64,000 nt of DNA from NCBI GenBank assembly GCA_026419785.1, contig JAODTK010005653.1:1-64000 (forward strand). The letters run 5' to 3'. The notes beneath the pieces were generated by a model. The model searched no databases. It was not told the DNA's origin and saw nothing but the letters and a program-made list of their open reading frames with translations. Below are positions 891 to 45,175 of this stretch, in pieces; position 1 is the first letter of the stretch; each line of letters begins with the position of its first letter. The position numbers and the translations under genes were made by a program. The DNA is from Sclerodactyla briareus. Its lineage: Eukaryota; Echinodermata; Holothuroidea; Dendrochirotida; Sclerodactylidae.

Positions 891-1414
891 CAAGGCGCCA
901 GCCACTGTCCTAACAAGATGGGGGGGGGGGTCAGAGCATTTGTTGGGTGTGAGGGGGGTCCGAAGCAGTCATGGGAACCATTTTGTGTGTGAAAAATAAT
1001 TAATGTAATGGAGTGCCTTCCAAAAGTTTGGGGGTCATGACCCCGTCCCCCCTAGTGGCTGCGCCGCGGTTGCAGGGACATTTCAAAAGAGTCCATTGGG
1101 ATGTGTCATCCTATCTGACTCTGCCACTATTGTATCGTCGGTAAGGAATACCAAGGATAATACGCTGCCTAAACTTGAGCGAGGAACCCTGCAATATAAT
1201 GAAGGATATATATTCCCCCACCCCCGCCCCCATATTCCCCCCCCCCCCCCCGCTGGGCGCCCACCTTTTGTTTTGAGGAGCTAAAATACCTAACAATGCA
1301 CCCCATCCGCATCGGGTGCTTTCTTCTGACTGTGGGACGATGGCCGATGGACTTGTGTCAACTTTAACTCAGGCTCAGGTCGTCAACAAAAAAAATCCTC
1401 TGAGATTTTTTATG

Positions 1415-1462
1415 GGGGGGGCGCGCGCCGGGTGGCGCCCCCTCTGATCCGCTTCCTGGTGT
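1415..1462. mobile_element. DNA-transposon/MITE-like terminus (copy 1)
   Basis: A run of G is followed by GCGCGCGCCGGGTGGCGCCC and then CCTCTGATCCGC. Read on the other strand this resembles the GGCGGATCCAGAGGGGG type of terminus found on many short non-autonomous elements in marine invertebrate genomes. The partner end was not located, so the family is not assigned. The equivalent in the second tandem copy lies at 4486-4535 and is closer to that motif (CTCTGGATCCGCC). Confidence 0.35.
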
Positions 1463-1836
1463 TTGAAACAACGATTCATCTCGGTAATAAGGGTGATCCA
1501 TGAAGACCAGGATACACCAATTCACTCGAATATTCGATCTTTCACATCACCATCAGCTAATCGGACACTACATGGCTGCAACACGGCTATTTGGCTACTC
1601 ATAGGGAAGTTTTTTCCAACTTCCTTCAAAATTAATGGCGTTATGCCAGATAAGCACCTAGAAACGAAAGTTGCTCTCGTCCCCTTCTCTCTCGAGGGGG
1701 GAGGTCTGCAGCTCGGACTTGCCCTGAAAAGAGCGATATTAGCAGAATGGTAATAAGGTGGGCCGATTCCCACTGGGGGCACCTGGGGGTCACAGCTTTG
1801 TCCGTGGGGGGGGGGGGGTTGCCCCGTGACACCCCA

Positions 1837-1854
1837 CCCGTACACGCCACTGGG
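1837..1854. mobile_element. Repeat-element end, ACGCCACTGG motif (copy 1)
   Basis: The bases CCCGTACACGCCACTGGG follow a long G run. On the minus strand they begin CCAGTGGCGT, a start shared by many dispersed short elements in invertebrate genomes. The same motif recurs at 4894-4911 in the exact part of the tandem duplication. No partner end or transposase was seen. Confidence 0.3.
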
Positions 1855-4485
1855 TTCATATTGTATGTGCATTCCGATGTCCCCTGCTGGGATAGTCACT
1901 GTCGGGCAGAACGTTGCCGCTCTTGTTCTTCTACCATGTGAAGTTAGTTTACCTGGAGCCATGTGTTATAAACATATGCGTATGGGACCACCCCATTCCC
2001 TCCCGCCCCCCCCCCTCCCGATCTTTAGAGCTTTGCCCACATTGGTCATTTCTGGAATTGAAACTTGTGCTAGCGATTCTATATTATTTTCTACTGGCAT
2101 TGTCATTAATCATTCGAGGTTTTGACACAACCGAAGGCTACGAAGATGTAGATGCTCAGAATAGTAATTATCATAGTAAGATATCATAGTGGACTCAGTG
2201 GAGGTTTCCTATTGTCACATCATGTTCCACTGACCAGAGTATAGTAGTAGAAAGGTAATAATTTTGCAAAGAAATTTCAAATCCCCCACCACCCTCCTGG
2301 TATCGTGGAACATATCAGCTCACTATGTTCATTGCAAGAGGGTCCCATGCCTCTCGCCACCTGGCCACACCTCTTAACTTACGAGCGCGCTAGTTGAAAA
2401 TTGAGCCATGTACCGAGTCTCGACCCCCTACACCCGTTTCCTTGCACCAAACGGTGACCCATGACCACAGACCATTGGAGATTCAGTCCCCCAAACGTTG
2501 TGAGCTGTTTTATTTAGCCTTTCCTGCAGATAGGGGGGATGGAAAATGAGTGCAATGAAAAGAATTGTAAAAGAATGGCTATATGGTGGATGTCGTTGAG
2601 CCAGGGCCTTGGTGGCAGGTGGGGTGCATTTTGAGCCATATTCCCCAATGGAATCCTGGATTCCTGGATTTTTGGCGACAGGGGTGGCAGTGACTCCTGT
2701 AAAGCCACTGATCCGCCAACTGAAAATTCTGGCGACGTCACTGATCGAAAAGGTTTCGCCAACCCCACTCACCCACCTCCGCCCGCCGGCTACCCTCCAC
2801 AGCTGTTCATCCCCATACGCCCTGGCTCTGTTTCATTACAATCTGGTGCATTTTGATAATAGCCTATAATCGCAGTTGACTGTTCAGGCTACTAAAGTCG
2901 GCTATAGAACAACACCAATCAACAGTATCCTACTTCTCCATTAGCCTAGTTTAGCTGGGCCAACATGTTAGGCCTAGATCAATGAACCATATTTAACACA
3001 GCGACTTTGATAATGTTTTTCCTTCATGTTTGTGTGACTTCCCCTTCCAAAATCCCCCAGGGAGGCCGTCAGTGATTTTACTGATTCGATTGTAGTAGCC
3101 TCCAATGAGTTTGTGCTCATCCGTGCAGAAAAAAGTCAGTAACCCGAATCGGACTCCCAGCCATGTCGACCGTACTGAAACAGGATTGCGAATTCCTTGC
3201 ACGAGCCACCATTTTCGCATAATAATGCAGAGCCGTTGCAGCGTTGCTACTGCTCGTCGGTGTCCCTTCGTACTATATAACATTTGAAAACACTTCATAT
3301 GTCAGCTTGCACATAGCCGCACGCAGCACTAATCGATATCAAATGGCTACAGACTATCTATTTGGGGTATTGTACACTAATAGACTGAGTCCAAAACACT
3401 ACAAACGAGAATGTCACACTCGAACTGTCACAGAGGCCTATGTTACGTCCCCTGTACAAAACTCATCACTGTTAATATAACACTAAATGGGCAAGTACTT
3501 AGCTAGTATGGTACGAAGCTCTGTCCGATGCAGTCACATAAATATACCATTTGAGAAGTATCTCCGATTATACGTGTGATAAGTAAGTGCCCTCAGGCCG
3601 CATTTTGAATTATCTAATCGTTATTCGTAATTTGATCATGCATCATCACACCTCGTGATATCTGATGTATCAATATAGTAGTCACGAACTGATATTGCCA
3701 AATCATTGCTGTGCCTCTGAGTTCATATTAGGGGCCTTTTGTGCACTGTTACGTATTTTGAAGACTAGATAAATGGCTTTGGAGATGAAAAAAAAACCGG
3801 TCAAGCTTCAGGTGCCTGTGAGATTTGGGGTAACAGTTTTTATGGTTAAGGAGATTTGTGTCAAGGTCACAGTTAGGCCTACTACTACTATAATGGTGGC
3901 ATCGAATTTCGTGAACCATGTTACGTATTTTCCGAATATTTTTTCACATAAAGTAAATAATTCAATCTTAACCTTTCGTGTTTGCTACCTTATCCCTTGT
4001 TGTTGTCAATTCGCACTAGATGTGGTGGGGGGTCAAGAGCATTTTGTTGGGTGGTGATGGGGTCCCGAAGCAGTCATGGGAAACTTTTTGTGTGTGAAAA
4101 ATAATTATGTATGGGCCTTCCAAAAGTTGGGCTTACCCCCCGGCCCCCCTAGTGGCTGCGCCTCGGTTGCAGTGACATTTCAAATATTCATAGGGATTGT
4201 GTATCCTATCTGAATGCTGCCACTATGTATAGTCTGTAGTAAGACGAAGGATGAATCTGTGCTCTTAAACTTGAGCGAGTGAACCCGGCAATATAATAAT
4301 GTATATAGTCCCCCCCCCCCGCCCTCTGGCGCCACCTTTGTTTTGAGGAGCTAAGAATACCTACAAGGCACCCCATCCGCATCGTTGGTGCGTCTTCTTC
4401 TGACTGTGGACAGATTGCAGATGGACTTTTGCAACTTTAACTCAAGGCTCAGGTCGTCAACAAAAAAAATCCGCTTTAATTTTTT

Positions 4486-4535
4486 AGGGGGGGCGCGCGC
4501 CGGGTGCGCCCCCCTCTGGATCCGCCCTGGTGTTT
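4486..4535. mobile_element. DNA-transposon/MITE-like terminus (copy 2)
   Basis: This is the second-copy equivalent of the terminus at 1415-1462. It has the cleaner motif CCCCCCTCTGGATCCGCC after a GC-rich palindromic GCGCGCGC core. Small differences from copy 1 are single-base indels. Confidence 0.35.
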
Positions 4536-4893
4536 CAAACCCCGATTCTCCGTAATACTGTATCCAGACAGATACACCAAATTCCTCGAATTCGATCTTC
4601 TCACATCACGTCAGCGTAATCGACCTACATGGCCGCATCGCGGCTATTCGGCTACTCATAGGGAAGTTTTTTCCAACTTCCTTCAAAATTAATGGCGTTA
4701 TGCCAGATAAGCACCTAGAAACGAAAGTTGCTCTCGTCCCCTTCTCTCTCGAGGGGGGAGGTCTGCAGCTCGGACTTGCCCTGAAAAGAGCGATATTAGC
4801 AGAATGGTAATAAGGTGGGCCGATTCCCACTGGGGGCACCTGGGGGTCACAGCTTTGTCCGTGGGGGGGGGGGGGTTGCCCCGTGACACCCCA

Positions 4894-4911
4894 CCCGTAC
4901 ACGCCACTGGG
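4894..4911. mobile_element. Repeat-element end, ACGCCACTGG motif (copy 2)
   Basis: This is the exact duplicate of the motif at 1837-1854, 3,057 bases downstream. It probably arrived with the tandem duplication and not by a separate insertion. Confidence 0.3.
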
Positions 4912-7075
4912 TTCATATTGTATGTGCATTCCGATGTCCCCTGCTGGGATAGTCACTGTCGGGCAGAACGTTGCCGCTCTTGTTCTTCTACCATGTGAAG
5001 TTAGTTTACCTGGAGCCATGTGTTATAAACATATGCGTATGGGACCACCCCATTCCCTCCCGCCCCCCCCCCTCCCGATCTTTAGAGCTTTGCCCACATT
5101 GGTCATTTCTGGAATTGAAACTTGTGCTAGCGATTCTATATTATTTTCTACTGGCATTGTCATTAATCATTCGAGGTTTTGACACAACCGAAGGCTACGA
5201 AGATGTAGATGCTCAGAATAGTAATTATCATAGTAAGATATCATAGTGGACTCAGTGGAGGTTTCCTATTGTCACATCATGTTCCACTGACCAGAGTATA
5301 GTAGTAGAAAGGTAATAATTTTGCAAAGAAATTTCAAATCCCCCACCACCCTCCTGGTATCGTGGAACATATCAGCTCACTATGTTCATTGCAAGAGGGT
5401 CCCATGCCTCTCGCCACCTGGCCACACCTCTTAACTTACGAGCGCGCTAGTTGAAAATTGAGCCATGTACCGAGTCTCGACCCCCTACACCCGTTTCCTT
5501 GCACCAAACGGTGACCCATGACCACAGACCATTGGAGATTCAGTCCCCCAAACGTTGTGAGCTGTTTTATTTAGCCTTTCCTGCAGATAGGGGGGATGGA
5601 AAATGAGTGCAATGAAAAGAATTGTAAAAGAATGGCTATATGGTGGATGTCGTTGAGCCAGGGCCTTGGTGGCAGGTGGGGTGCATTTTGAGCCATATTC
5701 CCCAATGGAATCCTGGATTCCTGGATTTTTGGCGACAGGGGTGGCAGTGACTCCTGTAAAGCCACTGATCCGCCAACTGAAAATTCTGGCGACGTCACTG
5801 ATCGAAAAGGTTTCGCCAACCCCACTCACCCACCTCCGCCCGCCGGCTACCCTCCACAGCTGTTCATCCCCATACGCCCTGGCTCTGTTTCATTACAATC
5901 TGGTGCATTTTGATAATAGCCTATAATCGCAGTTGACTGTTCAGGCTACTAAAGTCGGCTATAGAACAACACCAATCAACAGTATCCTACTTCTCCATTA
6001 GCCTAGTTTAGCTGGGCCAACATGTTAGGCCTAGATCAATGAACCATATTTAACACAGCGACTTTGATAATGTTTTTCCTTCATGTTTGTGTGACTTCCC
6101 CTTCCAAAATCCCCCAGGGAGGCCGTCAGTGATTTTACTGATTCGATTGTAGTAGCCTCCAATGAGTTTGTGCTCATCCGTGCAGAAAAAAGTCAGTAAC
6201 CCGAATCGGACTCCCAGCCATGTCGACCGTACTGAAACAGGATTGCGAATTCCTTGCACGAGCCACCATTTTCGCATAATAATGCAGAGCCGTTGCAGCG
6301 TTGCTACTGCTCGTCGGTGTCCCTTCGTACTATATAACATTTGAAAACACTTCATATGTCAGCTTGCACATAGCCGCACGCAGCACTAATCGATATCAAA
6401 TGGCTACAGACTATCTATTTGGGGTATTGTACACTAATAGACTGAGTCCAAAACACTACAAACGAGAATGTCACACTCGAACTGTCACAGAGGCCTATGT
6501 TACGTCCCCTGTACAAAACTCATCACTGTTAATATAACACTAAATGGGCAAGTACTTAGCTAGTATGGTACGAAGCTCTGTCCGATGCAGTCACATAAAT
6601 ATACCATTTGAGAAGTATCTCCGATTATACGTGTGATAAGTAAGTGCCCTCAGGCCGCATTTTGAATTATCTAATCGTTATTCGTAATTTGATCATGCAT
6701 CATCACACCTCGTGATATCTGATGTATCAATATAGTAGTCACGAACTGATATTGCCAAATCATTGCTGTGCCTCTGAGTTCATATTAGGGGCCTTTTGTG
6801 CACTGTTACGTATTTTGAAGACTAGATAAATGGCTTTGGAGATGAAAAAAAAACCGGTCAAGCTTCAGGTGCCTGTGAGATTTGGGGTAACAGTTTTTAT
6901 GGTTAAGGAGATTTGTGTCAAGGTCACAGTTAGGCCTACTACTACTATAATGGTGGCATCGAATTTCGTGAACCATGTTACGTATTTTCCGAATATTTTT
7001 TCACATAAAGTAAATAATTCAATCTTAACCTTTCGTGTTTGCTACCTTATCCCTTGTTGTTGTCAATTCGCACTA

Positions 7076-15499: not shown

Positions 15500-15548
15500 A
15501 ATACTGCTGTACGGCCGATGCAGTTCTCTCGAGGCCTCCGAAATCAAA
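15500..15548 (+). CDS. Microexon before FReD-A, unit 1
   Basis: This tiny exon lies between CTCTTTCAG| and |GTAAGC. It is 49 bases here and 46 in units 2 and 3, the difference fitting small indels. In the cleaner copies the frame that joins the next exon in phase reads YSVRRCRFSRGFKS, a linker with one Cys just before the DCQEM start of the fibrinogen domain. Sharp conservation across three units, with flanking introns much more diverged, supports a real exon. Confidence 0.6.
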
Positions 15549-15597
15549 GTAAGCTATTTCCGGTCAAACTTTTTTGTTTTGTTGGAACACACTATTC

Positions 15598-15742
15598 ATA
15601 AAAATATTCCGAATTCAATTTCTGATCTCCCGAATTGCATTTCTGATATCCTTAATTCAATTTCGCACCTGAAAAATATCACGAATTCAACTTCTGATAT
15701 CACGAATTCAATACTGATACCACGAATTCAATTTGTGATATA
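15598..15742. repeat. 21-bp minisatellite with GAATTC core, unit 1
   Basis: About six imperfect units of TATCACGAATTCAATTTCTGA lie in the intron between the microexon and FReD-A exon 1. The open frame that runs through it (repeated Ile, Ser, Asn) is a by-product of the repeat. Unit 2 carries the same minisatellite at about 29058-29205; unit 3 does not show it. Confidence 0.75.
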
Positions 15743-15828
15743 AAACGTGTCATATGGAGATCAGCTATCTACATTTATGTAAAATATGATCACTTATTCT
15801 ATAGAGTATTACTTATACCAACATCTGA

Positions 15829-15965
15829 TATCCTATAACTGTCAGGAGTGCTACGGGGATGTTCTCTCTCAATTCTAGTGGTGTCCTACGTCATCAAACC
15901 AGAAGGGTATCCAGAACCATTCGAAGTTTACTGTGACGACGGCCGCTGGCTCCGGCGGATGGACG
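15829..15965 (+). CDS. FReD-A exon 1, unit 1
   Basis: This exon codes for the N-terminal piece of a fibrinogen-related domain. Visible pieces are DCQEML, SGV-YVIKPEGYPEPFEVYCD and, after a glycine-rich turn, GGWT at the donor ACG|GTATGT. These match the family start (DCxE...SGVYxIxP...PFxVYCD...GGWT) and carry the first cysteine pair. Small indels near 15870-15885 and 15940-15950 shift the frame. The acceptor CTGAG is intact in unit 2 but reads CTGAT here, probably a base error. FReD proteins are secreted lectin-like recognition molecules. Neighbouring exons share orientation and phase. Confidence 0.8.
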
Positions 15966-16658
15966 GTATGTGAATTAGCTAACTATATTCCCACAAACAT
16001 ATGACAGTTCAGAGTTTAATCAATATAGAAGATCATATCAAAGTGATGATTGAATGTTCTGATTGACACATCGTTAAAAGACCGTGGTACACGCCTGCAT
16101 TTGTTATAGCTTACTCAAACCGAATTGCTTATACTATGAAATTATAAGTTCCAGGCCGGTACCTTTTCAAACTTCAGAGATGAACGCGCTTCACACCTGA
16201 GCTAATTCATTAGGTTTCGAGGACTCTGGTAGTTTGAGTGAAAAAGGCAAACAGTGACGCCATACATGAACATTCGTATTCTCTATACTCATGCGGTTGT
16301 AACAGATAACTGACCTTCATTATATTCCTATGTCCGAGCTATTTGTTTTGTTTAAATGAGTCACATTTCGTTGTTTAGAATTTGAGAACAACCAGTGGTT
16401 TCACAACAGATGTCAAATGATACCGTACCGAGACCTTTTTAAAATTTGAGCTTTTTGGTATTGGTGATATCAGCCCTGTCAATGTACATTACAGACCATA
16501 TGTCTCTATTGTTCCATTTCGAATTTTGCACTATTTGAGTTGAACGCTCTAATCAAATATGATTGCCAATCATTCATTCTTTTTATAAAAAAAAACTCTA
16601 AAACTTTGAAGCTAGCTTTTGTATATTCGGCCATCTGGTTTCTTCTCCTTTATTGCCG

Positions 16659-16925
16659 GTTTTCCAGCGCGAATGGGGGGCCGCTCAGAGTTCAATAGCC
16701 GTGGGGAGCACTAAACAAAAATGATTTGGATTCCTGTCGAACGAATCCTGGCTTGGCCAACGAAGGCTGTCCTATTTACCAACCAAGGGAACTACAGGCT
16801 TCGTGTGACCTGCAGTTCTCCAATGTTTCGTCCAGTCTCTCTTCCTCTATCAACAACAGTTTCCGCATCGTATGATGGGACAAATACGTCTAATTTTCCG
16901 CTAGGAACACACGAATCTATCGGAG
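16659..16925 (+). CDS. FReD-A exon 2, unit 1
   Basis: This is the middle part of the first fibrinogen domain. In order it reads VFQR, FNRR-EHYKNGFGFL, ESWLGNE, LTNQGNYRLRV, and near the end SDEW-K-YRLIV followed by GTYES and the donor GGAG|GTAAGG. These match the WLGNExxxxLTxxxxxxLRVDL and YxLxV core of FReDs. Several single-base indels interrupt the frame. The acceptor reads TTGCCG|GTTTTCC where unit 2 has TTGCAG|GTTTTC, so unit 1 lacks the AG; this is either a read error or a splice-site loss. Confidence 0.8.
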
Positions 16926-17433
16926 GTAAGGTTTTACACTTCGACTAAAAACTTTATAGTAGCATGGTATTTTCCGTGAGGCGGTAGACATTCTATCTAT
17001 CATAGCTGATGGTTGTTCTTATTTTCGTTTATTTTCGATAATTGTACTCCTTCTTTTATAATATGCTAAGTTTATACAGGGTTCTAATATATGGTCAAAT
17101 AAACAAATCCTTTCTGCAGTGGTATAACATTTCTGAAGTAACGACATATAGACCTAAACCTACTCAAAATTAAATATGATTATCAAAATGAGCTGGAAAG
17201 TACTGGTCGACACTTCCGTACCATTGTGTATCGGATTCGACGCCGGTTGTTTTCTCATATACCGTGTAACCAATTTATTCTATTTTGGTGTCTTTCATTT
17301 CGCTTTCCTTTCTGATTACACGACAAAAGTGATCAGGACGAGAATAGTGGTACAACCTTGTTTTCGCTCATGGACCGTAATCGATTAACTGTTTGCCTGG
17401 TGTTATCATACCAACACTTTCCGTGTACTGCAG

Positions 17434-17742
17434 TTGATTGTTTTGATTAGAAACACGGTTTTCCTTGGTTTCTTGTCTCCCATATACACCGCTGTGGTTT
17501 CCCCATGAAGTTTTATCCGCAGATGCGTGGTATCGTCCGTCCCATGACATGTTCTATGGAAATGCAGTTGCCGGATGGTGCGGAGAGCCAACCAATCTAC
17601 CCATTTTCTCGAAACTGTCAGCTTGGAACCGGGGGGGGGGGAAGGGTGCTTCTGTCCAGCTGGTTTTTGAATGGACGGTGATGACTGCGTTCCTGCCAAT
17701 GAATGCCCATGCTTTTTGTCGGAAATCAATCGAGTTGTTCCG
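17434..17742 (+). CDS. TIL (trypsin inhibitor-like) exon, unit 1
   Basis: This exon is rich in cysteine. The 3' half reads NCQLGT, then EGCFCPAGF, MDGDDCVPANECPCFL, ending at the donor TTCCG|GTAATG. This is the TIL pattern (C...C....GCxCPxGFxxxxxxCVPxxEC), used in protease inhibitors and in von Willebrand-type extracellular proteins. Upstream, RPSHDM-YGN resembles the start of a TIL domain. The acceptor GTACTGCAG is plausible, but the first ~45 bases of the exon are not matched to a domain. One G run (17630-17640) and one in-frame stop are probable base errors, because unit 2 differs at both places. Confidence 0.7.
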
Positions 17743-17879
17743 GTAATGCATCTGATAATTATCAAACCCATATTTTCACGGTTGGGATATTTTTTCTCCC
17801 TTCATTTTTTCGGGGAGGGTTAGCCGTTCATGCTGAGAATAATTCACGACTGAAACATGTTCCTTGAGATTCTTCCTAC

Positions 17880-18005
17880 CAATATATATTACTATAGATA
17901 TATATAGATAATATATATATATCCTAATATTTATATATATCTCTGATATATATATATCTATTCTATATATATATTATAATATATATATATTTATATATAT
18001 ATTTG
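17880..18005. repeat. (AT)n-rich microsatellite
   Basis: Interrupted ATATAT blocks lie in the intron between the TIL and EGF exons of unit 1. Unit 2 has no comparable tract there, so this expanded or was lost after duplication. Confidence 0.85.
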
Positions 18006-18181
18006 ACCTACTCGAGAATGATATTCCTTTATGACAGAGAACTCGAAAACCTATCCTTTAACTTACTTATTTTGTCAGTTGCATACATTCAGTAGCGGTA
18101 CAGTATAGAAAGAGGACATATTCAAACGGTTGTTGCTACAAATCATTGCTGTCTTCTATAACGACCTACCACGCTAATGAG

Positions 18182-18456
18182 ACTGCACCGAGCAGCGATC
18201 CTGTACTAACAAGCAGCTGGTCTCGAGGGGCCATACCGCTGTGACACCAACGTCGATGTGATGTATCAGGAGGGTTCGGCAGTGGTTAACTGTAAGGGTT
18301 TCGGCGGAGATGGACACAATTGTGAGCCGATCACTGACTGCTACTATGCCATACTGTTGTGGGAGTCGAGACGGATCTACCTCATCAAGCCGACCTACTG
18401 TCCCGGGGAGCGTTCAACGTCTCAGGTGTAATGATACTAACGGCGGTGGATGGACA
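18182..18456 (+). CDS. EGF-like domain plus FReD-B exon 1, unit 1
   Basis: One exon codes for an EGF-like module and the start of the second fibrinogen domain. Visible pieces are GPY, GFGGDGHNCEPITDCYY, then YLIKPTYCPG and NDTNGGGWT at the donor ACA|GTACGT. The order C-x-C then GDG-x-C is the EGF end; DCY...YLIKP...GGGWT is the FReD start, as in ficolin- and FREP-like proteins with EGF stalks. Frame shifts occur about three times in this copy. The exact acceptor is unclear (near GATGAG or GAGCAG, 18182-18196). The exon follows the TIL exon by ~440 bases in the same direction. Confidence 0.75.
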
Positions 18457-18937
18457 GTACGTACACCATACTTTTTTCGTGTGATTACGCATTCAAACAT
18501 AGCATTGTATTGTGAGGGTCTTAATTGCTTCCTAATGGACGTGGAGACTATACTATTGCTGTGTGACCAATTAGAATGAATTGTACAATCATAATGGACT
18601 TACGGCTCGTGTAGACTCTTAAACAAATTGTCAAAGTCAAATTGGATCGAACACACAAGGGGGTCACGAGCCAATCTAGCTATTGGAATGAAAAAAAAAT
18701 CACAAATGATTAGTTTTTGACCGGATCACTTGATTTAGGCTTTCTGCGTACCGACAACGACATCTATGCCCTCCACATGGTTGATATGTGCTCAATACTA
18801 TGGCCTGAAACATTTATTAGTTTATCAGTCCACTACCCGAAGTACTCGGTAACTTCTTAACTTTGGGGGATAACGTGGAACACTTTGATTGTTTTGGAAA
18901 CAACTGATTGATTGCTGCTTCGGTCTTATTCTCACAG

Positions 18938-19223
18938 TATTTCATTCAACGTCGCACGGGGGGGGGTGGGGGCTGGTACGCCGCCAACGAACTTCTACAC
19001 CACTGGGCGACTTACCGAGAATGATTCGAGTCTTTGATTTGGATACTTTTGGCTGGGTAATGAAAAATTCACTAGCCTTACGCAAACAGAAAGGATACAC
19101 ACTACTGAGTGGATCATGCTCGCTCTGCAAATTCGTCATTGTACTAAGAATGGTTCGTCGATCGTATCGGAAAACGATCAAGATTTTATTACCGTCTGCA
19201 TCAGCGGCCACAGTACAACTACA
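18938..19223 (+). CDS. FReD-B exon 2, unit 1
   Basis: The acceptor is TTCTCACAG. The frame reads FIQRRT, then after a G-rich interruption YAANEL-HHWATYRE, FWLGNEKF, SLTQ, and near the end SENDQDF and SGHSTTT at the donor ACA|GTAATG. It aligns throughout with the better preserved unit 2 copy at 32420-32683. The junction GGGWT|VFQR is in phase 0 in both units. Indels at the G run (18959-18968) and at 19035-19060 break the frame. Confidence 0.8.
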
Positions 19224-20064
19224 GTAATGGTTAATGATCTGTGAATGCCCATGATGTATATAAATTCTGTATTCAGCGTAATATCGCAGCCTTATATTTA
19301 ATGGCATGGACGAGATTTTTTCCCTCCTGCGCTCGTTCGATTCGTAAACCCGCCAATATGTACGTGTGTTTGCGCGGGTTATATACCACGATATAATATT
19401 ATTAAGTCAGACAATTTCAGCCCCAAGCTTTCCGTGCGCCATGGGTACAGAACACAGACACCGACCAAATACATATACATATATGCATGAAGAGGAACAT
19501 TTAAAATAGCGCAAACCCAATTAAGTGCAAATATGCAATGATTCACTATACACATTTTCCTTAAAAAAGAAAAAAAGGGGGTTTATTCCAGGTGTCACTG
19601 CTGTTAAACCAGACATTCAGATTTTTGGGATAAAAAAACCAAGCAAAAAAAACCTATGTGATCGATCGATTATGTATCGTTCCAAAGGAAACCTCTCCTT
19701 GTAAAAACTATAATTTCGCTGTTGTTCTGTGACAGGTGTAGCCTGTGCACTGTGCAGGCCACTTTCCTGTCCCTCTGGAATAATGTAGTGCCTGTAGAGT
19801 ACTGTATAGTCAATATCCAAGGACATTTCGATCCAAGTCTTGTTGAACCATGGTGACCCTGTCGAATATTATCCAAATTAGATAAGATACCACAGAACAT
19901 ATGCTGTTATGCAAGTCTACTCAAGTGGTAAAATATGTCTTACGTTCCTATCATCAGCGGAATAATGTAAATACTCCGAAGGCGGCAATAATACCTTATT
20001 TTTCTAATAGAAGCGCTCCTGCAGGAATAACTCTGGTTCGATATCATAGGGGAACATGTAGAAT

Positions 20065-20081
20065 ATATTATTATTATTATA

Positions 20082-20133
<52 letters not shown>

Positions 20134-20231
20134 CAGGAGATTGGAAAATTATTCCTTATTAATATTAATATTATTATTATCATTATTACTATTATTATTA
20201 TTATTATTATTAGTAGTAGTAGTAGTAGTAA
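20065..20231. repeat. (ATT)n / (AGT)n microsatellite
   Basis: Long (ATT)n and (TAT)n blocks followed by (AGT)7 lie in the last intron of unit 1, about 85 bases before FReD-B exon 3. The 206-codon open frame here, rich in Leu, is produced by the repeat running into the exon and is not a protein as such. Confidence 0.9.
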
Positions 20232-20314
20232 TAGGCAGAAATCACTGTTCCCGTTATCAGTTATATCTAACACAATGTGGGGCGATTATGCAACCTTTCG
20301 TCTTGTCTTTCCAG

Positions 20315-20603
20315 ATTATTAATTCTTTGGATAATAACAACGGGAGGGCTTCAGCACGTACGCCAGCGACAACGCGCTGTGGATCCTTCGACTGGCGCAG
20401 AGGAACACAGAGGGGGCTGTGGTACTCGGATAATTGGTGCGGTGATACTATGAATACGAATTTATCAGTCCCAATGGGCCAAGCAATCCCCCGCTTTTAC
20501 TCTTCCCCAACCTCAGGTTGAATACGCTGGACCAAACGAGAGAACATCTTTTGGTATTCTAATAACCACAATGACTGCAACCACAACTCTTCGCCGAGAA
20601 TGA
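20315..20603 (+). CDS. FReD-B exon 3 (C-terminal), unit 1
   Basis: The acceptor CTTTCCAG is followed by SLDNNNGRAFSTY-SDNA, DPSTGAEEHRG, GWWYSDNWC. This is the C-terminal fibrinogen piece, with the aspartate-rich calcium loop (here with S-D-N) and the GGWWY-C motif bearing the second cysteine pair. After about 20460 the frame is damaged by indels; EYAW and a PxL-rich tail align with unit 2. The stop is placed at TGA 20601 on that alignment and is uncertain. Confidence 0.7.
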
Positions 20604-23600
20604 AATACGACCGACGCTTGATCCCCACATTTGTTTCATTTGTTTCGTGGCAGATGTTTCTTGATGATACTTGTTTAATGCATTAACTTATCGTGTATAG
20701 TGTGATACTAACCATGAAAACTCAAGTTCTGCTTTAAAACAATAAAAACAACCCAAGACTGGCCGTTGACCATGTATCAGATCGTCACTAAGGACATATC
20801 GAGCAGCAAGAGTATGCGTTGTGTAAATGGTATTCGTTATCTTCGCGAACATGTTTCGCCGACTGGATTGATACTTTGATAGTTTAGTTTATTTCAATAC
20901 ATATTCGTTATGAACGAAATTGCCTGCAGCTTGATATACCAAAAGATTAAGATTCAATACATTTTTGGAGTTGGCATTATATGTTGTTTTCTCTCGTAGA
21001 GCTTGCTTGCTCGAGGAATGTTGGGGAGCTGCGGTATTTGCAAATTTCGTTGACCGAATTTGAGTTTATATGGTGAAGCCTCATTTAATATTTTGCTTAC
21101 ATATATACGAGTATCCAAAGTAGCCGATTTTAGTGAATTTACATATAGAATAGTTATTTAGAAATAAATGAAAAGATTCATGCATGCTCGTGTTGCCAGA
21201 CAAAGGTACGTGACGGAGATTATAGCTTATTTACCTGAAGGGATGAGCCTTTGTCTGTAGTCCTGCAGGTCGGCTACAACTAAGGACATATCTATTCTGC
21301 GTACCTGCGTAATTGGCAGAGAATCCTATATGCCATATTCTAAAACCCCGACATACATGGGGCTATCGTATTTATTAAGCGAGTGTCAACATCACGGGTC
21401 ACCAAAATGAACGAAAGCCATATTTCCATTCCTCAGTAACCTCAGGATTATCATTCCATTGACGCAGCGTTTAAATAACCGATTAACCAATCAATACCTT
21501 CCCGTCCCGCCACCACAATCAGATGTAACATTCCACTCCCCATTTTTTCGATTTAGCCTTCATTGGGACTCCTCGTCTGAATTTCCCGCCCAAGATTTCG
21601 ACTTTCTGATCCTGTGAGCCGGCCCCTGGAAATGATCATAATGCCATCCCAGGCTGGATAGAAATCTGCTTCAGGTATCACTGACCATACCGAGGCAGAC
21701 CTGATAGAGCCACCGCTCACATCTAATAACAAATAGCCCTGTAAGAAATGTACCTTATCGATCGTCGCTTCATTTATCCGAGATAGCTGATCAGTGAATG
21801 GATTCACCTTTCATGGGAGCTGTTTCTAAGGGTCGTCACAGGTGTGGTGTACTTTGTGAGGTAATATCCCCATGACTGTCCCCTGGTCTTGGTTCACACA
21901 GAACTTGACCAACATTCAATACATATTCAGTGCATGATGATTTACAGATTTAATAGGCCTGGTTTTTTCAGTACGATGTGATAACATCTGATAGATGAAT
22001 GAAAAATAACCAACACTGAGCAATGTCAGTCACAGTCAGCAAGATCGAGGAATTATATGTTGACGGTAATATTAGTAATTTAGGAATTAATCCTCCACCA
22101 CCCCCCCGCCCCATACTACCACCATCCCATGTCGGTGCGAGAAAAAGCAGATACAGAGAGACAACTCGGGCCGATTGCGCCACCAAGATTTCGACGGTGG
22201 CTATGCGCCCACCCTTACGGAAAACGCTCTGGCGATACGCGCGACAAAGGCGTCTGTTTCTTCGGCTTTCGCATAGCTCATAACTACGCAACATAAGGGA
22301 ACTGCTGAAAAGTGGTTCCCAAACCTCCGATGCGGGGACCCCATCTGGCCCCCACCGAGTGGAACCCAAGTCTGTGTCTCCGGAATAATGAGGATGTGCA
22401 GGCATTTACTTATCTGTTGTATAGTACTTGTCTTTTATGTTAAAACAATATAGTGAATATACAAGAGCAGGGTGGCCACCGTATTGGCAAAAACGCCAGA
22501 TTCACTCAGGGAAAACGCTAGAACGGCCGCCCAATAAAACACTAAATATGAGTGAATTTTGTAATATGTTGCGAATATTCCAATTCGGGTAAATTTTTTA
22601 GTACCCTCGGCTTTTTTACAATATATTTTGCAACAAGCCTGCTGGTCCCCCACAAGACTCGCTTCACACCCCAGTTGAGTCGTGCCACATGTTTGGGTAC
22701 CCATGGTCTAAAATTCGTATAGTAATTTGTATCGGACGCATGGCTTCCAACTTTGTACAGATACTGAGTACTGGGAGTTTTATATGTTCGCAGAATGCCT
22801 GCACGTGTGCAGTAGCGTTGTGTTTTGTTGGGAGGGGGGGGGGGGGGTCAATTACTTTCACTACCGCCATTTCCAGCGGGACCAAGCTCCAAGATTGGGG
22901 AAATGGGCTAGTCTCATACTTTCTAAGTATCATCATGACCTGCTCAGCGCAACGGACTTCAACAGTCGCAGAAGTCCAAGAGAGCACTGTACATCTCCAC
23001 ACTATCATTCCATATATGGCGGTAATACCTACAGTGATTGCAGCTTCCGACCATTTTTAGGAAGATGGAGGCTCCGACTCTGATACTCTCAGTTCGTGGC
23101 TTAGGTTGGTACCCCCGTTAAAGACTCTCTTGATTAAAGGATTAGACAAAATTTGCAAGGGCACTTCCAGTTGCCAGCTGACAGTCAGTGTTAATAGAGC
23201 TATACACCAGAATTGCATGGCGTTGGGTGCATGACCCATGGAACCAAAGTACCACAGCATTTTTTTCTGAAATCTCTAGCGTCTGAAGAACCGCCAGACC
23301 AGATGCCTGCTAGTAGTTGACTCGTTGTGATTATTGGTGTGCTGGCTGACGTTGGTAGCGATAACACCCCCCGGTGCAAGGAGTAGCCTTGAAGGTCATT
23401 GCCTGATACCATGGTGAACCAAGGCTGCATGGTCCTGATGGTACATTACATTTCCTGAGCTTTGTCCTGTACGATAATTCTGCAAGACTCACCCAATGAG
23501 GCTGAAGGAAGGGGAGCATAAAAAATATTCATGCCAGTTTAATTACATAGCATCAATGAATGAGTTCCAGGACACCAATTGCTCACTCGTTTCTTATGCC

Positions 23601-28961: not shown

Positions 28962-29007
28962 AATACTCTGTACGCCGATGCAGGTTCTCTCGAGGGTTCA
29001 AATCAAA
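28962..29007 (+). CDS. Microexon before FReD-A, unit 2
   Basis: This 46-base exon lies between CTCATTTGCAG and GTAAGC. Entering with the last two bases of a codon, it reads YSVRRCRFSRGFKS and joins FReD-A exon 1 (N-IPRDCQEM) in phase. It differs from the unit 3 copy at a single position (T or C at the sixth base). Microexons just before a FReD are compatible with alternative inclusion of a linker cysteine. Confidence 0.65.
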
Positions 29008-29300: not shown

Positions 29301-29440
29301 TATCCCTCGAGACTGTCAGGAGATGCTACGGGATGTCTCTCTCAAATTACAGTGTGTCCTACGTCATCAAACCAGAAGGATATCCCTAACCATTCGAAGT
29401 TTACTGTGACGAAGGCTCTGGGCTCCGGCGGCATGGAACG
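29301..29440 (+). CDS. FReD-A exon 1, unit 2
   Basis: The acceptor CCACTGAG is followed in phase by IPRDCQEMLR, then YVIKPEGY, FEVYCDE and a GSG-rich stretch to the donor ACG|GTAATG. It is homologous to 15829-15965 with the same two cysteines. Indels break the frame around 29345-29355 and 29427-29437, at different places from unit 1, so together the two copies support one coding frame. Confidence 0.8.
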
Positions 29441-30114
29441 GTAATGGTGAATCAGCTAACTATATTCCCCACAAACGTAATTGCAGTTCAGAGTTAAATC
29501 AATGATATTGAAATATATGATAAGTGATAATGATTCTGATTGACCCCCGCGTTAGACACCCCCTGTAACGCGCCTGATGGCCCTACCACGATGAATTCGT
29601 CACTGCGCTTACTAAAACCAAGTTGCCCTTATACTATGAATATGTTCACGCCGGTACCCTTTTAAACTTCGGAGAATACAAACTCTTCAACACCTGGAGC
29701 AATTACTTGGTTTTCGAGAAGTACTGGTCGTTTGAGTGTAAATGCAACAGTGACGTCCATACACTAACATTCGCTTCTCTGTATCACTAACGGAATTGTA
29801 AACAGATAACTGACCTTCATTCTATTAATATGTCGAGCTTATTATGTTTTGTTTAAATTAGTCAACTTCCTTGTTTTAGAAGTTGAGACACCATGTGGTT
29901 CACAACAGTGTCAAATGATACTGTAAACCGACCGTGTCAAAACTTCACAAAGTGTCCCAATGTTCCGCATTTTGCACTATTTAGAGATGAACTCAATCTG
30001 ATTAAATGAATATGCCCGAACAATTCATATTTTTTAGATAAGACAAAACCCGCTAGAAACTTGAAACGGATCTTTCCTTATATTAGGCATCATGGGTCTT
30101 CGCCATCATTGCAG

Positions 30115-30376
30115 GTTTTCATCTACGAAAGGGCGCAGCTAGAGTTTTTAATCAGGCGTGGGAGGTTTACAAAAATGGATTTGATTCCGGTCAAACGAAT
30201 CGGCTTGGCAACGATAGGCCCCTTCCTATTTAACAATCCAAGGAAACACGACTCCGTTTGACCTCGGTTCTCCAATGGTTCGTCAGTCTCTCCTCTATCA
30301 TACAGCAGCTTCCGCATCAGTGATGAGTGGGACAATATCAGACTAATTGTCAATAGGAACATACGATCTAGCGGAG
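30115..30376 (+). CDS. FReD-A exon 2, unit 2
   Basis: The acceptor CATTGCAG is intact. The exon reads VFH, WE-YKNGFDS, LGN, LTIQGN, and near the end VMSGTIS-D/SDEWDN with YRLIVNRN in the other frame, ending GCGGAG|GTAAGT. It aligns base for base with unit 1 16659-16925 apart from indels. The domain stops at the point where FReDs normally pass into the calcium-loop exon; no such exon follows before the TIL exon. Confidence 0.75.
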
Positions 30377-30870
30377 GTAAGTTTTGACTTATCCCTGTCA
30401 TTAGTAAACCTGGTGAAGACCCTTGCCTGCCTGCAACCACCAGGTGCACTTCGTTTCACGACCTACTACCCTATCTATTGATCTTGAGTCTGGAGCTCTC
30501 TACCCGACTGAGCTTATTCCGCCTCCTGAGCATTACAGCAGGTGGTATAACAAGTCTTCTCAAGTTAATCCACTGAGCGACATGAACAGTTGATCTAATC
30601 TAGCTCAATCTCAAAATTAGATATATATTTCAAAATTCGCTGAAAAGTGGTACGGTAGCTTCCGTACTATTGCAGCGGTTCGACGGCCTGTTTTTCACAT
30701 ACCCTGAATCATTTATTTCTACGCTGGTGGTTTGCACTACTCTGTCTTTCATATTAGACAACACTATCCCTGTGCAGTAGAGTTGATCTTTGTTATCTTG
30801 CGGAGTCTGGCAACCCGAGTGTTCAGGTACTCACATGTATTTGAACACCTAGTGACTGATGCTATTTCAG

Positions 30871-31222
30871 TGGATAATTTACCGATACAATTACCGTAGC
30901 TTCTTCTATACAGCTCTGTGCGGTATATTCTTTCCTGGCATCTCGCACCCCATAGACACCTCCGTTAGTTTCCACATGAATGTTTCATCTGTCAGATGAT
31001 TTTTGTCGTCCTGGTCCCCATCAAATGGTATATGGTAATTGTCAGTTTGCCCGGGGATCGTGGTGGGGAGCCAAACCAATCTACCCATTGTCTCGAAGAC
31101 TGTCAGCTCGGAACCGAAGGGTGTTCGTCCATCTTGGGTTTTTTTGATGGCCGGAGATACTGCGTTCCTGCCAATGGAATCCCAGTTTTTTCTTTCCTGT
31201 CGAAATCACTCAGGTCGTTCCG
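30871..31222 (+). CDS. TIL exon, unit 2
   Basis: The acceptor TGCTATTTCAG is good. The 3' half reads MVYGNCQFA, GDRGGEPNQSTHCLEDCQLG, TEGCS, then GFFDGRRYCVPAN, ending at TTCCG|GTGAGT, a strong donor. These are the paired cysteines of a TIL domain (YGNC...C....C...C.LGTEGC.CP.GF......CVPANEC). It is somewhat longer at the 5' side than in unit 1. TIL modules are small disulfide-bonded domains of secreted inhibitors and mucin/VWF-type proteins; joined to FReDs here they may act as a rigid spacer or an inhibitor. Confidence 0.75.
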
Positions 31223-31623
31223 GTGAGTAAGAAACCGACATTATTAACCCGCATTTTTCTTGGTTGTGAGTATTTTGTTCATTGGTGGAGAATTCAACGT
31301 AAGCCTATATTAATGATGGTATGGTTATGTGGCAAACGAATCGAAACAAACAAAGGCTATGCATGATATAAGGATCGGCGTGGTGATCGGTAGCACCGAA
31401 ATTCTCGAAACTACTTTGACGAAGACTATTAAAGCACAAAGATGACATAATAATATACCTTTCCTCCATTATGTTATCGTGATAGGAGCGGAACACTCCG
31501 TCCTTAACGAAACATATTTCATTGTCATATTATGCATTAACCTACTGTTATGAGAGGGGACATACTTCGGGTTACTTCTTGATTCATTCATTCTTCTAAA
31601 CGACATGACATACGTTTAATGAC

Positions 31624-31909
31624 GACTGCACCGAACAGCGATCCTGTACACAATCAGCTAGTTCCCGGAGGACCATACCACGGTGACTCTAACGCTCGAT
31701 GTGATGTTCAGGACGGGGTACAGCAATGTTACTGTTTGATGGGTTTCGTGGAGATTGGACAAACTTTGTGAGCCGATCTACCTGATTGTTACGAATGCAT
31801 ATACAGCTGGGGAACGTCGAGACGGGTTCTACCTCATCAAGCCGAATAACTGGCCTGGGGAAGCTTTCAACGTCTCATGTGTAATGAGCTACTAACGAGG
31901 TGGTGGACA
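31624..31909 (+). CDS. EGF-like domain plus FReD-B exon 1, unit 2
   Basis: This exon reads DCTEQRSCTQSA, GGPYHGDSNARCDVQDGVQQ, CYCLMGF and GDGQTCEP (frame-shifted), giving six cysteines in the EGF order with the typical C-x-C. It then continues CYECIYSWG, YLIKPNNWPGEAFNVSCVM to GGGWT-like bases and the donor ACA|GTAAGT. One exon thus joins the EGF end to the FReD-B start with no intron between. Four or so indels disturb the frame. The acceptor is uncertain. Confidence 0.8.
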
Positions 31910-32419
31910 GTAAGTCTACCATACGGTTTCATTATTCACGCGAAGAAAACATAGGCGGTGTTACTAGGCCTTCCACTGCTTTCTAATGAATATTGGAACC
32001 CTGTGTAATATACTGCTGGCTTGCTCTGGGTGACTGTTTGATCGATTCCTTCCTCCACATTTGAAGTGATGAACGGACGATGTACACTCTGAAACGATCT
32101 AGTCAAATAATCCGAACACTTTCAAAACTGTCGAATGGGCCACGAACCGAATCTGCCGTATACTTCTTTCAAAAAATTATTTTTCTCCACAGAAAATGAA
32201 ATTCCAACGAATGATGGATTGTAGTATTTTTTGTCATATCACTTGACAATTGTATTGCCTTCAACAGTATGTTATATGTGTGATATTGAAATGGGTAAAC
32301 ATTTATTATTCAGCACATTATTATCCACCCAATTCTTTTGTAACTGTTTATGTCTTTGGTGAAGTGACCCATTCGTTTTGAAATACTGATCGATCGTTCT
32401 TCGGGTTTCATTCTCACAG

Positions 32420-32683
32420 GTATTCCAACGTCGCACTGGTTACAGACCGCCAGACAACTTCTTCATCAACAACTGGGCGACTTTACCGAAAGGATTCGGG
32501 TCTTTGAGTGGGACTTTTGGCTGGTATGAGAAAATTACTACCTGACGCAACAGAAAGAATACAAACTACGAGTGGACATATTAGATTCTGCAAATTCACA
32601 ACTGTACGTAGAACGTTCGTCGTTCGTTCGGAAACGAGCAAGATTATTACCGTCTTCAGTCCAGCGGCTACAGTGGCACTACA
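32420..32683 (+). CDS. FReD-B exon 2, unit 2
   Basis: This is the clearest fibrinogen exon in the window. After the acceptor TTCTCACAG it reads VFQRRTGYRPPDNFFINNWA, TLPKGFGSLSGTFWL, then (shifted) LTQQKEYKLRVDILDSANS, QLYVERSSFV and RLQSSGYSGTT at the donor ACA|GTAATT. These match the FReD core VIQRRxxGxxxFxxxWxxYxxGFGxLxGEFWLGNexIxxLT. At least three frame changes occur in the exon, again typical of base errors. Confidence 0.88.
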
Positions 32684-39535: not shown

Positions 39536-39814
39536 CCATCATTCTTTGTATAATAACCACGGAAGGCTTTCAACACCTACGACAGCGACAATGCTGTGGA
39601 GCCTTCGACGCGCATAGAGGAGCACAGAGTGGCTGGTGGTACTGTAATCCTTGTGCGTGTAGTACTTGGCTACCACTGTTTATTACTGTCAGCCCTGGGA
39701 CACTTACTCGCTCTGTTCTTATACCACAACACTGAATACGCATGGCACTCACGGAAGAACAGCTTCTAGTATTCAGTAGTCACAATGACTCAACCACAAT
39801 TTTGCGAGAAATAA
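39536..39814 (+). CDS. FReD-B exon 3 (C-terminal), unit 2
   Basis: After the acceptor TTCCGTCAG the exon reads HHSLYNNHGR, F-NTYDSDNAVEPST, EEHR, GWWYCNPCACST, then (shifted) EYAWHSRKNS and TMTQPQFCEK with TAA at 39812-39814. These are the calcium-loop aspartates (D-S-D), GGWWY, the second cysteine pair and the aromatic-basic end of a FReD. The AATAAA formed around the stop could also serve as a poly(A) signal. Two frame changes lie between GWWY and EYAW. Confidence 0.8.
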
Positions 39815-41830
39815 AATAGCCGGACCAGTTGATCCCACATTCGGTTCATTTCATGTGCTGTCTTTGAATACTAATCTGTTGAAAAATAACATGTCCCCTC
39901 AACTTTGTTACAGTGCCGGAAACCTCAAGCCGGAACAGCGAGAGCTGCATTTAATACGAAACAGGATTTACATTGGCCGCTGGTCAGCTGATTGACCTTT
40001 GATGGTTTGTTGACATTTAATTAATCATCGCGATATGAACGAGATGGCTTGCACTTGATATATGAAAAATGCACGGATTCAATCATTTTTAAATTGGGCC
40101 AAGTATAAATGTTGTTATTCTCTTGAAAGGGCTGTTTGCTCGAAGTCTGATTCCACTTGGACGCTCGCAAATTTGGTCATTGAAGATTTTAGTCATACCG
40201 TGGAGACTTCATTGAATTTTTAGCTAGAGAGCAACAAGTACTGAATTTAGCAAATAAACATATCAGATAGTATTAAACATAATAGAAAAGGGCCTCGCAG
40301 CAGTGCGGTTGCCACGCCCGTAGGCATAGACAAACTGAACAAAGGTACGTTGACGAATACAGAGCCACTCAACTTGACGTTTGTGGGGCCGAAAAATCTC
40401 TCTCTTCCCGCAGAATCACTAAAAGTGACTGGATAACTTCAAGGGTCCTTATGTGAGAATTCGATGCCACGCAAGAAATGGGCAGCCGTCCACAAGTCCC
40501 TGAAATATACAGGAAGTACCGTAAAACCTCTGACACATTTATCCAGTTTGGCGTTCACAGAGGAAAACTATCCATCCACATAACATTACAAAGAATCCAC
40601 GTGTGTTACGGATCCTTTTTAGAGTATATAGAGTAGATGAATTCCGTAATTGACACCCCAAATAGTCATTTATAATATACAAGATAACCTTGCTTGCAGT
40701 AGTGCGAGTTGCCACAACGTGGCAGGCAAAGGTGCGTGACGGAGATATAGCGCAGATACATATAACTTTGAGCTAATAGGCTGGAAGAGTTTAATCACGT
40801 AGTCCAGGTCCGTGGGTAGGCCTGAGGACCAAGGACTCTTATAAGTTCTGCGTACTTTGCATGGTTAGTATCTTCCATGTGTTCAATACTGTTCAAGTCC
40901 ACCCCCCCTTAGCGCGCCTCTTACAACAGATAACGGACTTTGTAGGCCTATTCCAAAACCCCGACATGCAGAGGGCGATTGGGTACGGGGGAAGCGAGTG
41001 AGAACGGGTTCAAAAGGGAACTGGAACATTACGTGTCACCGATGTTTCTCAAATTGCACTGAACATATGTCATCCTTTTCCAGTAACTCTCAGACGGGAT
41101 CAATACATACTTATTGACGCGGCAAAAAATAACCGATCATTCAATCAAGACATTGCTATAACCGCCACAAATGAAGATTCTTGGATGTCCCCTCATTTAT
41201 GGGATTAGGCTCCTCGTCCGTCCTTGTATCCTCCCCACTTCGCGATATTATGGTTTTGCCTTGTCGTAACCGCCGCGTCCGCCGGCCTGTGTCCGCCACG
41301 CCTGACGTCCGCCGCGCTGTTGTCCGCCGCGTCGCGCCCGCTGGAAATTGTTCCGTGTTAGCGCAATAATTCTTTGACGCTTTATCCGATTGAATCTGAA
41401 ATTGGCAAACATAGGTGCCAAGAAATCTCGGGAGTTCGAAAGTGGGCCTCGTGCCATTACTGCTGCCTTTTTTCAGGTTTCACCCCGAAAAATAAAGTTT
41501 TTGGGTTTCCGATTTACACAAACTGGTGGGTGGAGACCTCAGATGTTCCGAATACATGACGATGAATTTCAAGGTCACCGACCAAGAGTCGGACTGCACT
41601 GCTTTTGTGCATTGACGACCGGTAGTTCATTGAATAAAACCTGCCCCGTATTTTGGTCATTGCTGTCGTTTTTTTTTTATGTATAAATATTAGTCACCAT
41701 CAATCGCCTGACATTGTTCCAAAGGGGGATATACATGTTGGCGATTTACCCCGCCAGGCAATGTCTAGTTCAATACTAGGTTCAGCCAGCACGACATAAC
41801 ATTTTCCTCCAAACTGAGAGCCCCAGAGTT
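39815..41830. other. 3' flank of unit 2
   Basis: To ~41230 this aligns with 20604-21600 of unit 1. Within it a short block with GCAGTGCG-GTTGCCAC...AAAGGTACGT-GACG occurs twice (about 40303-40350 and 40695-40745), whereas unit 1 has it once (21185-21220). No gene is recognised. Confidence 0.45.
41262..41345. repeat. GC-rich degenerate repeat (GTCCGCCGCG-type)
   Basis: About six irregular units of GTCCGCCGCG/GTCCGCCACG stand out from an AT-rich neighbourhood. On the minus strand they read RARRGGQQRGGRQAW and GGRGGYD, an RGG-like composition, but this follows from the repeat and has no start, splice site or partner exon. Confidence 0.6.
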
Positions 41831-43760: not shown

Positions 43761-44009
43761 ATGTTACCCCAAAGTTTGCATTGACCTATGGTGCATGTGC
43801 CTTCTCTGCGACATAATATTTGTTACTTTGTGCGGTTTGAGCTACACCTCATTGTGCTCTACTTTGAATCCGACAGATGAGTGGTCATAACTTGCCCAAG
43901 GGAAACAATGGTTCTGCACTGAATTGCCTAAAATAATCGAATCGAAGTATCACGAATGCTCTCTAAAAAGATTGAACTCGAATAAAGGTTTACACATGAC
44001 GATAATTGA
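43761..44009. other. Edge of tandem array, nothing recognised
   Basis: Unique sequence between the ~145-bp repeats and array copy 1. Confidence 0.4.
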
Positions 44010-44447
44010 ATAAAATGCCGAGGCCCCTGTCCAGCTTTCTTAGCAGTAGTCTAATCAGGGCCCTCTTGTTGCGTTGAGGCACAGTCCCTGTTTCAATTGA
44101 TGTGTTCGCGATGTCAAAAACTCGTACACCTCACTCGGACGTCCTCTGATTAAGCTGTGTGGCATCGCGGATCTAGAGCCGAGAATGTCAATGAAACGCT
44201 TTTCGTGGCTTCATCTCTTCTCGACTGATAGGCTCGATTTCCGAAAGGTGTAACAGGGTGGCACGATTGTACACTCGGCATTAAATTGGAACGACTTCGA
44301 ATTTTTCCAAGCATATATGTGATGTTCCCCTGACTGGAGAATCAGAAAAAATGCCGAACCAGTTGTTGGGCCATCAGTCCCAGACTCGACGTTCGTTAGT
44401 ATAACAAAGAGATCGGTTTTATCATCTCGGAGTCATCTGATAACCTG

Positions 44448-44678
44448 TCAAATGTGACACCAATGCCCATGGACCGTTAGTACGGTACTGTTTGCGTTAT
44501 ACTTCACCAGCTGATCTCTTGTACTTGATCGAATGTTTCGTGTCGTACGGATTGTAATCCCTCTTTGCGTTTTGTTATCCGTAGTGGAGTTGTAACAAAA
44601 ATGTAGTCGGAGGGCAGGCTGTGGTCTATAGTCATAGCATTGTGCAAGTTTACATTCGGTGGAGCGCAAACTAATCAC
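44448..44678 (-). CDS. Unknown minus-strand frame in array copy 1
   Basis: This 76-codon frame contains YDYRPQPALRLHF, RTTRNIRSSTRDQLVKYNAN and STVLTV. It is homologous to the frames in copies 2 and 4. Protein family unknown. Confidence 0.25.
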   Translation of the reverse strand: MISLRSTECKLAQCYDYRPQPALRLHFCYNSTTDNKTQRGITIRTTRNIRSSTRDQLVKYNANSTVLTVHGHWCHI

Positions 44679-45089: not shown

Positions 45090-45175
45090 TACAATTCGTA
45101 TATGGTGACATCTCGTATATGCATCATCGTAATATGACCTCATTTCGTATATGACATCATTTGGTAACCTAGTGG
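45090..45175. repeat. 16-bp TGACATCATTCGTATA repeats, array copy 1
   Basis: About four to five imperfect 16-bp units lie head to tail. The core TGACATCA resembles CRE/AP-1-like sites. Counterparts lie at 48050-48130, 51720-51810 and 55440-55535 in the other array copies. Confidence 0.6.

Follow-up and report, generated by a model that had tools for sequence, protein, structure and literature searches.

In invertebrates, recognition molecules include fibrinogen-related proteins. Ficolins, tachylectin-5A and angiopoietins have a single fibrinogen-related domain (FReD) combined with collagen, a coiled coil or a short N-terminus. Here, we analyze an array of FReD-encoding exons in a 64,000-base stretch of the Sclerodactyla briareus genome, hereafter the window (bases 1-64000 of contig JAODTK010005653.1, our C2896, which has 318,640 bases in an assembly of 319 Mb and 3171 contigs). 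The window copies are members of a repeated multi-exon animal gene family, and we propose that the window probably holds two copies of a gene for a secreted lectin-like protein in which a half FReD is followed by a TIL module, an E (TILa)/EGF part and a complete FReD.

The closest described proteins share part of this layout. FReM of Biomphalaria and other molluscs combines an EGF-like and a fibrinogen domain and, like the window family, has EGF directly before a complete FReD; the source (PMC7588048) groups FReM with secreted recognition proteins. Unlike the window family, FReM has a single FReD and neither a half FReD nor a TIL module. Mosquito FREPs contain more than one fibrinogen (FBG) domain, often truncated at the 3' end and joined by a hinge, and resemble the window family in having two FBG domains in one protein and in the frequency of truncation; however, the accessible text of the source (PMC1242226) names neither TIL nor EGF in them (the string 'egf' occurs 0 times) and its authors suspect that the truncation is partly mis-annotation, whereas the window family is always truncated at the same exon boundary. 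EGF-FReD proteins and multi-FBG proteins with truncated domains are thus already in print (PMC7588048, PMC1242226). By contrast, no FReD-TIL protein was found in the literature searched, subscription journals being outside that scope, which agrees with a preliminary description, made from the sequence alone, that did not recognise a TIL module between two FReDs as a standard architecture.

Eight array units on C2896, named U1 to U8, were examined, and U1 and U2 lie inside the window. As the preliminary description had it, the exons of both units follow one order on the plus strand: a small exon, the microexon linker of that description, FReD-A exons 1 and 2 (A1 and A2), a TIL exon, an exon in which EGF is fused to FReD-B exon 1 (B1), and FReD-B exons 2 and 3 (B2 and B3). 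The repetition of this order in unit 2 was borne out, with all seven pieces placed between 28962 and 39833 on the plus strand. The features are as follows.

15500-15548, plus strand: unit 1 candidate small linker exon, CAG before and GTAAGC after; a coding candidate only, with two frames open
15604-15733, no strand assigned: minisatellite of 20-21 bp upstream of FReD-A exon 1
15832-15968, plus strand: unit 1 FReD-A exon 1, 5 frameshifts
16659-16927, plus strand: unit 1 FReD-A exon 2, 6 frameshifts and 1 stop
17522-17743, plus strand: unit 1 TIL exon, 8 frameshifts, 1 stop and a G-run insertion
18181-18459, plus strand: unit 1 EGF fused to FReD-B exon 1, 7 frameshifts
18951-19223, plus strand: unit 1 FReD-B exon 2, 7 frameshifts, 2 stops and a G-run insertion
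20333-20622, plus strand: unit 1 FReD-B exon 3, 8 frameshifts
28962-29007, plus strand: unit 2 candidate small linker exon
29305-29443, plus strand: unit 2 FReD-A exon 1, 5 frameshifts and 1 stop
30117-30378, plus strand: unit 2 FReD-A exon 2, 7 frameshifts
30995-31223, plus strand: unit 2 TIL exon, 4 frameshifts
31621-31912, plus strand: unit 2 EGF fused to FReD-B exon 1, 9 frameshifts
32420-32683, plus strand: unit 2 FReD-B exon 2, 4 frameshifts
39549-39833, plus strand: unit 2 FReD-B exon 3, 11 frameshifts and 1 stop, 6.9 kb after exon 2
63364-63474, plus strand: unit 3 small-exon island; the FReD-A exon 1 of this unit is outside the window, at contig position 64361
3489-3584 of L032 and 25309-25428 of L034 (record coordinates): FReD-B exon 3 cysteine-bearing insert, beside the predicted ligand site

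Several lines of evidence establish these pieces as parts of a repeated family. First, a self-comparison of the window matches 14.9-19.3 kb to 28.3-32.7 kb and, in part, to 58-63.5 kb, and further units lie on the contig at 64.4, 91.3, 116.4, 208.1, 251.3 and 294.7 kb, as located with single-exon queries and with hidden Markov models (HMMs) built from the genome's own FReD exons. Second, these same HMMs and single-exon queries recovered the window pieces, and nucleotide islands ∼73-87% identical to unit 1 occur in seven or eight C2896 units; island identity and own-exon HMM matches together place the exon pieces beyond chance. The small exon could be aligned in seven of the eight units and, in the eighth (U5), in part only. 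Third, the U6 TIL exon as query gave 42 matches at E 0.1 or better, counted as 31 places, 12 on C2896 and 19 elsewhere. Judged by the TIL exon, the copy number on C2896 is thus at least 12. A genome-wide Fibrinogen_C profile search, in which 150 of 201 candidates were scored so that absence among its matches says little, returned 115 exon-level matches and none inside the window at E 0.001. One of the 12 TIL places on C2896, at 147144-147346, is a TIL relative on the minus strand, indicating that the array includes an inversion. A minisatellite of the AATTCAATT type, 20-21 bp long, variable in copy number and present in both orientations, precedes FReD-A exon 1 in several units.

The majority reading, i.e., the consensus protein from the alignment of the array units, is a normal protein with a half FReD, a TIL module, an EGF module and a complete FReD, and in Pfam it matches Fibrinogen_C twice (one complete), TIL and EGF_3. 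Fibrinogen_C (PF00147; cut-off 22 bits) was likewise detected on unbroken exons (U8 A1, 31.8; U6 A2, 66.3; U5 B1, 32.4 bits). A complete match, to positions 2-220 of 221, was obtained for FReD-B only, and in the majority reading only, while FReD-A ends at about position 133 of the profile in every locus read. For TIL (PF01826; cut-off 24.5 bits), the U6 exon scored 33.0-33.5 bits over profile positions 1-55 of 55 and is among the only five TIL matches genome-wide at E 0.001 (E 2.4e-5); the C1238 copy, at 22.0 bits, is under the cut-off. EGF_3 (PF12947; cut-off 28.5 bits) was matched by the C1238 exon (31.7 bits) and the array majority reading (32.2-33.0 bits), with C3168 (27.8 bits) and C2376 (26.4 bits) below the cut-off. 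The Pfam search succeeded on unbroken exons of cleaner copies and failed on window peptides: 10 single-frame window peptides gave no Fibrinogen_C, TIL or EGF match, eight being without any match and two matching unrelated families weakly, because the frame changes within nearly every exon. Seven other window open reading frames (ORFs) gave two weak unrelated Pfam matches, none over the cut-off. Ficolins, tachylectin-5A and angiopoietins, which share the Fibrinogen_C domain with the window family, are the nearest solved structures for a query of FReD-B1 and FReD exon 2 joined from two loci.

FReD-B keeps the DxDND and GGWWY motifs. Between WWY and the following conserved cysteine, its exon 3 has ∼20 inserted residues, extra cysteines included, on C2896, C2543 and C3168; C2376 lacks the insert. 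Among the exons found, a set that begins at the small linker exon, there was no collagen repeat. The cassette between the two FReDs resembles VWF-type D assemblies, in which TIL and the next cysteine-rich stretch align with it: the TIL and EGF majority reading aligns with FCGBP over residues 1-128, the full cassette length (summed E 1.1e-9), and VWF and MUC5B align over its TIL part. It differs from these assemblies in standing between two FReDs, in that the exons examined showed neither a VWD nor a C8 domain, and in that TILa is sub-threshold. Of the TIL-then-EGF order described earlier, both domains were found, but the pair is better called a VWF/FCGBP-type TIL-E(TILa)-EGF linker.

The half FReD-TIL-EGF-FReD architecture is real and recurs in eight C2896 units and on five further contigs. 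All seven pieces stand in the same order and on the same strand on C1238, C3168 and C2376 (117-122 kb); the order is the same on C2912, where B3 was not found, and on C2543, where A1 was not found, and C1756, C2797 and C2376 (42-47 kb) look similar, although their pieces are weaker. Within the array, A2 was not found in U4 nor B2 in U8, and U7 B3 was located in a separately read stretch, L030. At four of the 19 TIL places outside C2896 (C1238, C3168, C2543 and C2912), FReD matches lie within 5 kb on both sides, a count based on the 150 scored Fibrinogen_C candidates; additional TIL matches on C2376 and C1756 are weaker and came from the fetched stretches only.

The claim that FReD-A lacks its third exon was confirmed: no exon-3 match lies between A2 and TIL in any of 12 loci, i.e., all seven array units with both exons and all five other loci. 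Frame breaks make the exon-3 query less sensitive in the array, yet it still detects FReD-B exon 3 there. A hidden FReD-A exon 3 before TIL is not supported by this count. Moreover, a tree built from ten exons of each kind, A2 and B2 (with two array units selected per exon, rows labelled by locus position and two single FReDs unlabelled), separates A2 from B2 (98/97), and does so in 100% of 200 bootstrap trees. Because this split holds across contigs, the half FReD is an old separate lineage and its pairing with the complete FReD is old as well. That the half FReD is kept as a separate lineage genome-wide suggests that it may have a function of its own. A stable half FReD joined to a full FReD by a mucin-type linker would be a new build for recognition molecules.

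Exon phases point to how this architecture could arise, namely, by the swap of one exon. The phase-0 GGWT/VFQ junctions noted earlier in both FReDs are present in the array majority reading and in the cleaner copies; FReD exon 1 donors are phase 0 in 5/5 A1 and 4/4 B1 exons read, and FReD exon 2 acceptors are CAG or TAG followed by GTN in loci where the match reaches the exon start. The A2 donor is phase 1 in all three cases read (U6, C1238 and C3168), as are the B2 donor in the majority reading and the FReD-B exon 3 acceptor in C3168. TIL thus enters in phase 1 like FReD-B exon 3 and takes the slot of FReD-A exon 3. Tentatively, we suggest a lineage-specific, tandemly expanded class of recognition proteins in which a VWF/mucin-type TIL-E-EGF cassette took over the position of FReD exon 3 by phase-matched splicing, so combining a permanently half FReD with a full one, and in which a cysteine-bearing insert remodelled the ligand-site loop of the full FReD in some members. 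An array of many copies whose ligand-site loops diverge offers a setting in which to study how a recognition repertoire diversifies.

A single transcript joining all exons is suggested by their unvarying order, the short gaps between them and phases that are largely compatible; secretion, lectin activity and oligomerisation are likewise predicted from sequence. In FReD structures, the calcium and ligand site lies in the exon-3 part. Because FReD-A lacks this part, the canonical calcium/ligand site is absent from the half FReD. We suggest that FReD-B would be the ligand-binding head, that the disulphide-rich TIL-EGF part could form a rigid stalk for spacing or cross-linking chains, as happens in mucins and VWF, and that the half FReD, without binding via the canonical site, may serve as a platform for packing, dimerisation or partner binding.

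As sequenced, the window copies do not read as a working gene: unit 1 has 41 frameshifts and four in-frame stops over six exons and unit 2 has 40 and two, neither has an intact open reading frame, and the first 134 kb of C2896, read as one stretch, contain no ORF of more than 211 codons. Frameshift-aware alignment of 45 exons to the majority reading gave 254 frameshifts and 12 stops, with 14 (U7, five exons) to 44 (U3) frameshifts per unit and 19 in U6. Nevertheless, private single-base differences fall at codon positions 1/2/3 as 129/97/304, with 262 silent, 262 replacement and six stops, and omega is ∼0.34 overall and 0.40 for codons ≥4 from a lesion. Judged by these substitutions, the family is kept under protein constraint. 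Indels are also unevenly distributed. There are 0.84 indel openings per mismatch in the window tandem repeat at 47-58 kb versus 0.16 between two C2908 copies (p 6e-26), and in the U6-U7 pair the ratio changes from 0.19 to 0.40 at ∼210.9 kb (p 1.5e-4). The patchy indel excess and the retained constraint together favour uncorrected long-read stretches. Most likely, the window frameshifts are mostly indel errors from assembly or long reads, to which true decay may have added some.

A number of observations count against our interpretation of the window copies. No copy is fully open, even the cleanest array units having the 14 and 19 frameshifts of U7 and U6, and in the C1238 copy EGF/B1 and B2 are broken and B3 contains a stop. 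Omega is biased toward constraint near lesions, because frameshift-aware alignment favours amino-acid matches, and at codons ≥4 from a lesion it reaches 0.65 in U1 and 0.74 in U4, which fits relaxed constraint. Another C2908 copy (L023) is also indel-rich. As genome-wide controls, 6/7 tubulin and 8/14 HSP70 matches are without stops, so that errors would have to be local, and FReD exons on other contigs contain stops, too. With respect to the cassette, TILa (PF12714) on the stretch between TIL and EGF scored 20.7, 22.8 and 25.1 bits against a cut-off of 27, a sub-threshold likeness, and the FCGBP score is the sum of several repeats, the best single stretch having E 7e-5. Finally, the phase-1 TIL acceptor is seen in three of the five read (U6, C1238 and C2912), and the TIL donor is phase 0 in U1, C3168 and C2912 and phase 2 in U6, C1238 and C2376. 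Because the EGF acceptor is phase 0 in C1238, C3168, C2376 and the majority reading, the TIL-EGF junction reads in two ways; the phase-2 donors may be one-base errors. The candidate TIL exon tail of the majority reading, GRKSIRSFR, does not fit the phase-0 tail read in U1 and C3168.

The alternative that survives best, although we consider it unlikely, is true pseudogenization of the window copies and perhaps of most other array members, which would be decayed tandem copies of an older lectin gene with working members that are few or lie elsewhere. The lesion counts of both window units, the G-run insertions in unit 1 TIL and B2, the high omega of U1 and U4 away from lesions, the stops on other contigs and the mostly stop-free tubulin and HSP70 matches, from which the genome is not uniformly noisy, all fit this idea. 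However, 254 frameshifts versus 12 stops is far from what neutral substitution and usual indel rates would give. Substitution constraint is equal in badly frameshifted and clean exons (omega 0.34-0.44 with ≥5 frameshifts; 0.36-0.40 with 0-2), A1 is free of frameshifts in four of eight units whose later exons mostly have many, and the indel excess shifts abruptly along the contig. Thus, we prefer sequence error acting on a constrained family, and we caution that sequence quality should be checked before frameshifts in such arrays are taken as a sign of pseudogenes.

It is improbable that the TIL module is a protease inhibitor, like free TIL inhibitors, rather than a structural spacer. The Pfam domain is named after trypsin inhibitors; however, the nearest solved relatives are the TIL modules of FCGBP, VWF and MUC5B, which are structural, and one cysteine of the set is missing from the C1238 copy. 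Least probable of all are two adjacent genes, one ending with half FReD and TIL and the other starting at the EGF/FReD-B exon: stand-alone EGF-FReD proteins do exist (FReM of Biomphalaria, PMC7588048) and the TIL donor phases at the TIL-EGF junction are mixed, but the EGF exon begins at a splice acceptor ∼0.2-0.7 kb from the TIL donor in the five loci read (U1, U6, C1238, C3168 and C2376), the order is constant in eight array units and five other contigs, and on C2908 (L024 99748-100251, minus strand, record coordinates) A2 is fused without an intron to FReD-B exon 1 in one 168-codon open frame, TIL and EGF not being seen at this fusion.

The G-runs of unit 1 lie in TIL (17600-17650) and FReD-B exon 2 (18955-18980) and are absent in other units; a similar G-run is also found in U5 EGF. 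In the 319-Mb assembly there was no COX1 match, and tubulin and HSP70 gave seven and 14 exon-level matches, respectively. The assembly seems poor in conserved genes, and with so few matches, the housekeeping controls for sequence quality are thin.

The window contains two further repeats. Four head-to-tail units of ∼3-3.7 kb occupy 44009-58342; they are ∼78-81% identical with an unusually high indel/mismatch ratio (0.71-0.85), and two ORFs examined there (47006-47446, minus strand; 53627-54052, plus strand) have no Pfam match over the cut-off. At 913-7075 lies a 3.06-kb tandem duplication whose copies are 95.3% identical, with 69 mismatches and 39 gap openings.

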